DNA of 5,046 nt, taken from contig VGSD01000254.1 in the NCBI GenBank assembly GCA_016875155.1, positions 1-5,046 of the forward strand. The letters run 5' to 3'. Position numbers and translations under genes: made by a program. Shown piece after piece: positions 3,362-5,046 of this stretch. Origin of the DNA: Deltaproteobacteria bacterium (GTDB lineage Bacteria > Desulfobacterota > BSN033 > UBA1163). Every line of letters starts with the position of its first letter. The first letter of the stretch is position 1. The notes beneath the pieces are model-generated. The model was given only the letters and a program-made list of their open reading frames with translations, had not been told where the DNA came from and made no database searches.

Positions 3362-3886
3362 ATGAAAATAAACAATGTTCACGAGAGGAAGTTAAAGGGA
3401 TCTCCTGCTAAGGTCGGTACACTCATTGACTCATTGGCCTCAGGCAATGACCTGCTTTGGCCTAAGGACTCCTGGCCCCGCATGAAATTTGACCGACCAC
3501 TCGGTATCGGCGCAACCGGTGGGCACGGACCGATCCGATATTCTGTTGAAGCCTATCATCCTGGGCAATCCATTCGCTTCAGGTTTCTTGGTCCAAAGGG
3601 GTTTACCGGAATGCATAGCTACGTCATTCTCCCCATGAGCGATAGAGAAGTGGCGCTGAGGCACCAATTAGAGATGCAGACCCATGGCCCTGCCCTTCTG
3701 ACCTGGCCACTGGTGTTTCAACCATTACACGATGCACTGATCGAAGATTCTTTGACACGCGCTGAAGTTTCGTTAGGATTGCCAGCCACGATCCATCCGT
3801 GGTCACCCTGGGTTAGACTACTCCGCTGGATCATGTCCGGAGGCAAAGCCCGCAAACAAATTCTGATGGGTAAAGTATGCGTATAG
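3362..3886 (+). CDS. SRPBCC (START/polyketide-cyclase fold) family protein
   Basis: From the ATG at 3362 the protein has 174 residues. It opens with a first strand and helix typical of the SRPBCC fold (NNVHERKLKGSPAKVGTLID, 4-23), then LLWPKDSWPRMKFDRPLG (31-48) and the conspicuous GATGGHGPIRYSVEAYHPGQ (50-69), followed by beta strands (71-77, 84-91, 97-103) and a long C-terminal helical part. The WP..WP.M.FDRPL and GGHGPIRY blocks mark a subgroup seen as uncharacterised 'SRPBCC family proteins'. The fold makes a deep hydrophobic pocket, so small-ligand binding or cyclase-like chemistry is possible; no catalytic residues can be assigned. Its last 10 bases overlap the next gene, so the two are probably co-translated and work on the same process. 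Confidence 0.75.
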   Translation: MKINNVHERKLKGSPAKVGTLIDSLASGNDLLWPKDSWPRMKFDRPLGIGATGGHGPIRYSVEAYHPGQSIRFRFLGPKGFTGMHSYVILPMSDREVALRHQLEMQTHGPALLTWPLVFQPLHDALIEDSLTRAEVSLGLPATIHPWSPWVRLLRWIMSGGKARKQILMGKVCV

Positions 3887-5046
3887 GAATCATTCGTACT
3901 CGTGAGTCGGTCTGTCGTTGCGCCGAGTCCATCGCTCAGGGTCTTGCTACCCTTAGTCATGAAGCCATCATTGTTAACTCGGAAGAGATTGAGTTTCGGG
4001 TAGAAGACTTAGTCAACCAATGTGACTTCATCATTGATCATACAGACACTTTCAAAGGCAGAGGGTTCTTACGCGCTCTGGTCCGGCTCCTCCTCGAGTC
4101 TCGAGGAGCCCGGATCGTGGGTTCAGACGCGAAGGCTACCTTTTTAGCCGATGACAAAATCGCTTCAAAGGCAAGACTTTCGGCAGCAGGTATCCCAACT
4201 CCACCGGGAATTGTGGTCACCTCAAAAGAGTGGGAATGTCCTCTGTGGCTTGAACCACCACTGGTCCTGAAACCGACTTTCGAGCATATGAGCCGCGGAC
4301 TCGTCATCGCACAAACTAAATCCGACGCTCTCCTACAGGCAACAAATTTACTCCACCAATATCGGCAACCCATAGTGATCGAAAAGTATCTGCCAGGACG
4401 GGAGCTGGCCGTTCCTCTGCTGGCTGGCCCCAAAGGGATAGAGGTTTTGACCATCCTCGAGTGGCGGTTGAAGGACACAGAAAAAAGTGTGCTCAGCGAA
4501 ACATTTAAACAGGTGGACCCGCCCAAAGAGAGTATGATGCCTGCAAATCTTCCACTGGGCCTTAAAGAGGAAATTGAGACGTTGGCTCGGAAAGCCTTAG
4601 AAGTTTTGGGTCTGAGAGACTATGCCCGTTTCGATATACGGCTGACGCAGGACAAAACCCCTTTCTTCCTTGAAGCAAATGTTACACCGAGCCTTGAAAA
4701 GGGCGAAGCCTTTGCCCGTTCGGCAAAATGGTCAGGATTGGATTATCCCGCGCTCATCGAACGGTTAATCTCTTCAGCCCAGAGTCGTTATCATCCGTCC
4801 CCTCAAAAGCCTGAAAAACTGATTACAATTGAGCTTCTCACAGGGTCTATGATCCTGGAAATTCCGGAAGGAGTTCATATCCCGCCTCCATCAAGCATCG
4901 ATCTTGCCAGAATCCTCGACATTCAGTCAGGAGAAACGGTTCTCGACCTTGGGTGTGGAAGTGGGCTTCTCTCTATTGCAGCGGCCAAGCTGGGAGCTGA
5001 AAAAGTGGTCGCGGTCGATATTGATCCGATTGCCATTGCTGCAACA
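3877..5046 (+). CDS. D-Ala-D-Ala-ligase-like ATP-grasp fused to SAM-dependent methyltransferase (3' partial)
   Basis: An ATG at 3877 opens a frame with no stop for 390 codons to the window edge. Residues 1-300 form a Ddl-like ATP-grasp enzyme: pre-ATP domain MRIGIIRTRE and FIIDHTDTFKGRG (51-63); RIVGSDAKATFLADDK (79-94), like the Ddl stretch before the central domain; LSAAGIPTPPG (101-111); an ATP-binding strand PLVLKPTF (128-135); the hinge VIEKYLPGREL (167-177); and the metal-binding ARFDIR (250-255) and LEANVTPSL (265-273). After a linker (about 300-315), residues 315-390 begin a class I methyltransferase: GVHIPPPSS (332-340), motif I VLDLGCGSGLLSIAA (355-369) and the acidic loop VAVDIDP (378-384), closest to PrmA/PrmC-like enzymes. 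ATP-grasp enzymes join a carboxylate to an amine or thiol through an acyl-phosphate, so the product may be ligated and then methylated. Substrate unknown. It overlaps the SRPBCC gene by 10 bases. Confidence 0.85.
   Translation, partial: MRIGIIRTRESVCRCAESIAQGLATLSHEAIIVNSEEIEFRVEDLVNQCDFIIDHTDTFKGRGFLRALVRLLLESRGARIVGSDAKATFLADDKIASKARLSAAGIPTPPGIVVTSKEWECPLWLEPPLVLKPTFEHMSRGLVIAQTKSDALLQATNLLHQYRQPIVIEKYLPGRELAVPLLAGPKGIEVLTILEWRLKDTEKSVLSETFKQVDPPKESMMPANLPLGLKEEIETLARKALEVLGLRDYARFDIRLTQDKTPFFLEANVTPSLEKGEAFARSAKWSGLDYPALIERLISSAQSRYHPSPQKPEKLITIELLTGSMILEIPEGVHIPPPSSIDLARILDIQSGETVLDLGCGSGLLSIAAAKLGAEKVVAVDIDPIAIAAT

Follow-up and report, generated by a model that had tools for sequence, protein, structure and literature searches.

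What is a ligase of the D-alanine–D-alanine ligase (Ddl) type doing in one polypeptide with a methyltransferase? The question is raised by a stretch of 5,046 nucleotides (positions 1 to 5,046 of contig VGSD01000254.1, assembly GCA_016875155.1) from a Deltaproteobacteria bacterium of the Desulfobacterota, hereafter called the window, at whose end an ATP-grasp domain runs straight into an S-adenosylmethionine (SAM) methyltransferase domain. An original prediction, made from the letters of the window, had proposed sequential ligation and methylation of the same substrate, for example a peptidoglycan-like precursor. We find that the fusion probably helps to build a methylated amino-sugar compound, and our leading, if tentative, proposal is that it heads a conserved operon making a small cytoplasmic amino-sugar conjugate. 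No paper describing the fusion or the operon was found in the open-licence PubMed Central (PMC) literature.

The fusion itself is real and recurrent in certain anaerobes. The frame holds no stop across its 390 codons and continues past the window end, compared with a longest open frame of 216 codons in 500 base-shuffled copies of the same segment. In a Pfam scan residues 102-298 match Dala_Dala_lig_C (E 1.3e-22) and residues 349-390 match PrmA (E 1.3e-14), and the ligase and methyltransferase motifs named in the original prediction are present (Table 1). The window end cuts the methyltransferase domain; complete relatives stop at about residue 558, adding the remainder of that one domain, and no additional domain was found in the four full-length relatives scanned. 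A database search at E 1e-3 found 529 relatives of the fusion protein. Among the best 120 of these, 111 are 551-657 amino acids (aa) long and nine are shorter, one of the 120 being the window's own truncated protein; PF07478 and methyltransferase domains are both annotated on rows of this set, in which the closest named genome, G053, contributes a protein (P0024) 72% identical to the window fusion. Sources named among the matches listed are metagenome-assembled genomes labelled Desulfobacterota, Thermodesulfobacteriota, Deltaproteobacteria, Syntrophaceae and Syntrophorhabdus. An artefact of the frame was rejected on the strength of the open frame, the 111 long relatives and the one-frame genes in 23 complete loci described below. 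In the structure model of the fusion the mutual placing of the two domains is unsure (predicted template-modelling score, pTM, 0.56); its structure matches were filled by the first domain, and the methyltransferase was compared by sequence only.

Carriers of the fusion were surveyed with protein P0002 as query at E 1e-50. Matches occur in 12 of 46 genomes in the class of genome G001, 1 of 23 in that of G053, 2 of 8 in that of G102, 1 of 3 in that of G066 and 18 of 149 in that of G307, and all genome samples together hold 34 different carriers, a recurrence that agrees with the original prediction. From 33 of these carriers 34 loci (stretches of 4 to 19 kb) were taken, G041 being left out (its gene pieces lie at contig ends) and G551 giving two; L033, L096 and L098 are cut by contig ends, and the ATP-grasp gene of L035 by a contig start. 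In L041, L086-L088 and L091 some genes escaped the longest-open-reading-frame gene caller and were later placed by protein-against-DNA alignment. With this placement, the order ATP-grasp, methyltransferase, YdjC deacetylase and family 4 glycosyltransferase (GT4) is found on one strand in 27 of the 34 loci. YdjC adjoins the methyltransferase in all 32 loci that hold the latter, and GT4 comes next in 30 of these 32 (L096, at a contig end, is one of the two misses). The contig of L033 stops just after the ATP-grasp gene, L096 runs from methyltransferase to YdjC up to near its contig end, and L041, L097 and L098 hold methyltransferase, YdjC and GT4, L098 being cut at its contig end. Neighbouring genes can be tightly packed, as in L042, where they overlap by 4 bases (9033-10742, 10739-11602, 11599-12687). 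The nearest named genome, G053, has the operon too (L036). Among the 25 database relatives nearest to the window protein (P0002-P0026), nine have a longest contig exactly equal in size to that of a GT4 relative, an equality that suggests, rather than proves, the same contig; this comparison drew on 62 rows for the fusion and 39 for GT4, each out of 120, and gave at least 16 matches. Pairwise distances of the four operon proteins agree as well (Mantel r 0.84-0.92 over 24-30 loci for each pair, with none of 999 permutations reaching the observed value). Besides the operon genes, no gene cluster occurs in more than five of 43 clustered loci, a set to which the window and eight loci retrieved through their GT4 alone also belong.

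The original prediction had named one-domain homologues as evidence that would speak against it, and some exist. Of the 27 complete loci, 23 have ATP-grasp and methyltransferase in one stop-free frame and four have them separate: in L090, L092 and L093 they are adjacent genes, and in L035 an opposite-strand gene stands between them. One genome has them on different contigs (L094, ATP-grasp alone, and L095, methyltransferase with YdjC), and three loci (L041, L096 and L097) have a methyltransferase in genomes that gave no match to the ATP-grasp at E 1e-50. In these loci the genes that remain stand in the usual order, which favours one pathway, yet fusion is not obligatory. In a methyltransferase tree L041, L090, L092, L093 and L095 form one supported group and L096 and L097 another, while L035, a long branch, pairs with a fused row; given these scattered positions, separation or loss of the ATP-grasp seems to have happened more than once. 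Separately, L041, L090, L092 and L093 show a second methyltransferase-like gene upstream and a gene with an FGE-sulfatase domain downstream.

The ATP-grasp half has kept the Ddl fold, with the ATP-grasp lysines and acidic residues among its conserved Lys, Arg, Asp, Glu and Asn; it differs from Ddl in its D-alanine (D-Ala) site, in its fused methyltransferase and in the presence of a separate Ddl in the same genomes. We take the substrate-site residues of Ddl to be S150 and Y216, with S281 binding carboxylate (Escherichia coli DdlB numbering). None of these three residues is kept in any of the 62 aligned relatives: Met138, within EHMSRG, is invariant, Tyr at position 212 occurs in none, and Glu277, again invariant, stands at the position of the Ddl serine that binds the carboxylate of the second D-Ala, a replacement that fits an acceptor lacking that carboxylate. 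The Ser and both Cys of an SxCxC motif in the N-terminal loop are likewise present in all 62. Of ten comparison loci, seven (L099-L104, L106), from the same genomes, look like typical Ddl and retain the usual site residues, and three (L105, L107, L108) are more distant. Could the protein nonetheless be an ordinary D-Ala–D-Ala ligase that was fused by chance to a PrmA-type methyltransferase? The curated Ddl models score below cut-off (108 of 243 bits for PRK01372, 90 of 246 for TIGR01205), and a separate PF07478 gene of at least 120 bits is found in 18 of the 20 carriers, out of 34, that this search covered (G552 and G563 have none, and that of G546 is matched only in part, at the end of a contig), compared with 52-94 bits for the fusion domain. 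With the replaced site residues, these results led us to reject an ordinary Ddl, a role that the original prediction had called unlikely, and they leave a chance fusion next to no probability. As an observation in its own right, tandem pairs of Ddl-like genes some 1.1-1.3 kb apart occur in operon carriers (G307:C79, G435:C2, G362:C26, G467:C69, G551:C115).

The methyltransferase half has PrmA, HemK and PrmC among its nearest families, of which PrmA and PrmC act on ribosomal protein L11 or on release factors, and this brings in the idea that the fusion modifies a protein or a ribosome part, by RimK-like amino acid addition and PrmA-like methylation of the same protein. A weak match to a RimK-family model (43 bits) fits this idea as well. 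However, P0002 misses the cut-offs of both PrmA (73 of 183.15 bits) and PrmC (57.9 of 199.1), no ribosomal gene recurs with the fusion in the 43 clustered loci, and the constant YdjC and GT4 would be left unexplained, so that we consider protein modification quite improbable. A search of the databases with the methyltransferase found 335 relatives, the best-scoring of which are 236-281 aa long and lack PF07478; several stand-alone rows are named Syntrophus or Syntrophales, and other rows are pieces of fusions. Two stand-alone methyltransferases, P0133 and P0134, carry an in-frame insertion of PPLLKGG-type repeats that resembles a translated mobile repeat.

The two constant partners are what point towards an amino sugar. 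The deacetylase belongs to the YdjC family (PF04794, E 5.8e-59 and 3.9e-58 in the two operon proteins tested), and its invariant Asp and His, which we take to have a metal role, are present in 18 of 18 aligned rows. Its nearest named family is HpnK, at 133.5 and 141.3 bits. In PMC12583986, HpnK deacetylates BHT-N-acetylglucosamine made by HpnI, and the hopanoid HpnI/HpnK/HpnJ system thus resembles the operon in a transfer of N-acetylglucosamine (GlcNAc) that is followed by YdjC-type deacetylation. Hopanoid side-chain synthesis would gain further from squalene-hopene cyclase, which scores over cut-off in seven of the 34 carriers and more weakly in four others, compared with none of 14 controls over cut-off. 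It loses more from the HpnK cut-off of 232.6 bits, which the operon proteins miss, and from the 27 carriers with no cyclase over cut-off (some assemblies may be incomplete); we rejected the hopanoid pathway as the main role on these two grounds and regard it as very improbable.

The fold of the glycosyltransferase points to an enzyme acting on small molecules. In profile comparison with the PDB its best match is MshA (6.7e-16), followed by BshA (4.4e-12) and SenB (1.3e-9); its model (mean predicted local distance difference test score, pLDDT, 88.4) is ranked by Foldseek with MshA (rank 1) and SenB first; and in VIA-align BshA (35.1), MshA (34.6) and sucrose-phosphate synthase (34.5) tie, with SenB at 33.0. 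GlcNAc is its likely donor because a deacetylase follows. The nearest named family is NF038229, a "GPMC system family 4 glycosyltransferase", which three operon GT4 match at 249-286 bits, under its cut-off of 400, and which is over cut-off in none of 198 genomes; no description of a "GPMC system" was found in open-licence PMC full text. Apart from the operon, an NF038229-type GT4 in L056 (3638-7993), which scores 375.7 of 400 bits, has a B12-binding radical SAM-like gene and a methyltransferase-like gene next to it.

The same two enzymes could instead decorate an envelope glycan or glycolipid, with GT4 adding a sugar to a lipid or lipopolysaccharide part, YdjC exposing an amine and the fusion adding a methylated amino acid. 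GT4 weakly matches exopolysaccharide, PglA-type and lipid glycosyltransferases, the relative of YdjC, HpnK, acts on lipids, and a DUF374 gene lies upstream in the window. This gene is not recurrent, however, among the 43 clustered loci the operon has no recurring neighbour for a flippase, a polymerase or a lipid carrier, and MshA, SenB and BshA stand above lipid-linked enzymes in the Foldseek ranking. We therefore hold an envelope role to be unlikely, if far from negligible.

For the cytoplasmic amino-sugar conjugate that we prefer, the steps might run as follows. GT4 would move GlcNAc from UDP-N-acetylglucosamine onto an acceptor, and YdjC would then strip the acetyl group. The ATP-grasp domain would activate an amino acid or another acid as an acyl phosphate and join it to the freed amine, and the methyltransferase, which is fused to the ATP-grasp in most complete loci, would methylate the product. 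The domains, the folds, the gene order, the shared descent, the kept ATP-grasp residues and the replaced D-Ala residues are computed results. Sequential ligation and methylation, as first proposed, is plausible as a role in one pathway; a peptidoglycan-like precursor as the shared substrate is not indicated, the conserved neighbours pointing to an amino-sugar compound.

Several points weigh against this pathway. We infer which sugar donor, acceptor and acid are used, where the methyl group goes and in what order the steps run, and the donor is not fixed by fold, since sucrose-phosphate synthase and trehalose transferase match as closely as BshA and MshA do. Glu17, present in 54 of the 62 relatives, might take the place of the first Ddl acid, in which case amino-acid recognition may be partly kept. 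The gene is patchy rather than universal, with fusion matches in 10 of 395 genomes of the phylum sample of G001. YdjC-GT4 pairs with no adjoining fusion genes are found at L058 (1-1810) and L059 (6853-8717), and such a pair may serve other compounds. Genomes G362, G467 and G542 have no ATP-grasp match at E 1e-50, and the three loci of methyltransferase and YdjC, with or without GT4, that lack such a match suggest that ligation may not be obligatory. The agreement of the protein distances, for which there is no housekeeping control, speaks for shared descent of the unit rather than for function. Lastly, that YdjC and GT4 genes follow beyond the window end is predicted from the relatives, the window's own downstream DNA lying outside it.

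How would such a pathway relate to known ones? A glycosyltransferase, a deacetylase, a ligase and a methyltransferase together follow the logic of mycothiol synthesis, whose later enzymes are MshB, MshC and MshD. The operon shares with this pathway a GT4 for which MshA is the best match; it differs in that GT4 scores 36-40 of 462.5 bits against the MshA model, and none of MshB, MshC and MshD was found in the operon by general family scans, no dedicated search having been made. From bacillithiol synthesis (BshA, BshB, BshC and, for N-methyl-bacillithiol, NmbA) it departs in its ATP-grasp ligase, with BshC in none of the 34 carriers (three of 14 controls; incomplete assemblies may hide some), in a deacetylase that is YdjC rather than what we take to be the BshB type, and in three GT4 scoring 19-38 of 273.7 bits against the BshA model, though the fold agrees. 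The same combination of four activities is also the logic of N-methyl-bacillithiol (PMC12719100). Against the selenoneine enzyme SenB GT4 reaches 49-67 of 300 bits, and neither a SenA-like nor a SenC-like gene is a recurrent neighbour of the operon in the clustered loci. The GPMC system shares the nearest named family of GT4, below its cut-off as given above. The operon would work like a glucosamine-conjugate pathway and, as judged by these membership comparisons, belongs to no known one.

We speculate further that the product might be a new low-molecular-weight thiol or cofactor of anaerobes of the Desulfobacterota kind, in which the amine of a glucosaminide bears a cysteine, or something similar, added by the ATP-grasp and is methylated; of this more specific idea we are doubtful. 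The likeness of GT4 to MshA, BshA and SenB speaks for it, as does a gene resembling coenzyme A (CoA)-disulfide reductase that immediately precedes the fusion, though only in L082 and L083. This gene, on the same strand in two of 34 loci from related genomes, lies at 3440-4621 in L082 and 1190-2371 in L083. The GSH-S_ATP domain is found in only one of the 34 carriers (nine of 14 controls; here too incomplete assemblies may hide some). The missing BshC, the rarity of GSH-S_ATP and this neighbour leave room for a new thiol, the involvement of sulfur being conjectural.

The upstream part of the window adds nothing that is conserved with the operon, as relatives of the six genes before the fusion are missing from all the other clustered loci. 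The gene just before the fusion had been labelled SRPBCC and offered as a functional partner; it matches no Pfam or NCBIfam family at E 1e-3, so that the label is not confirmed, and a partner role was rejected since none of the other 42 of the 43 clustered loci holds a relative of it. No Pfam family at E 1e-3 was found for this gene nor for those at 1326-1880, 1000-1329 and 206-649. The segment 1000-1880 on the plus strand holds overlapping open reading frames of 109 and 184 aa with no Pfam or NCBIfam match at that threshold, of which, by eye, one looks like a small DNA-binding protein and the other is nucleotidyltransferase-like; together they might be a toxin-antitoxin-like pair. No transfer RNA was found in the window.

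Table 1. Coordinates of features in the window (5,046 nucleotides) and the basis of each assignment.
Feature	Position	Strand	Basis or remark
Fusion open reading frame, ATP-grasp/methyltransferase	3877..5046	+	390 codons, ATG start, 3' end open; open reading frame call, Pfam, relatives of 551-657 aa
ATP-grasp domain, Ddl fold, residues 1-305	3877..4791	+	
SxCxC motif, residues 11-15, N-terminal loop	3907..3921	+	alignment of relatives
EHMSRG, residues 136-141; Ddl equivalent EGS(S/T)xG	4282..4299	+	alignment of relatives
Glu277	4705..4707	+	alignment and structure comparison with Ddl
Methyltransferase domain, PrmA/HemK-like, incomplete	4831..5046	+	protein-against-DNA placement; PF06325; complete in relatives
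SAM motif I VLDLGCGSG, residues 355-363	4939..4965	+	translation
Acidic loop VDIDP, residues 380-384	5014..5028	+	translation
Upstream gene labelled SRPBCC in the original prediction	3362..3886	+	stop overlaps fusion start by 10 bases; not conserved beside relatives
DUF374, acyltransferase-like	2618-3271	+	PF04028 E 1.2e-7
Ogt, O6-methylguanine-DNA methyltransferase	1899-2504	+	PF01035 E 5.1e-29; TIGR00589 over cut-off

The carriers thus hold a fixed unit of four enzymes, the first gene of which goes by the names Ddl or L11 methyltransferase in the databases, and from their genomes two known families of thiol ligase are missing or almost missing. If the product were a thiol or cofactor, the operon would tell us what these organisms use instead of glutathione or bacillithiol, and would represent a third solution beside mycothiol and bacillithiol. 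If it is not a thiol, the operon would still represent an unnamed amino-sugar pathway of few enzymes, whose conserved gene set shows no need of a membrane partner.
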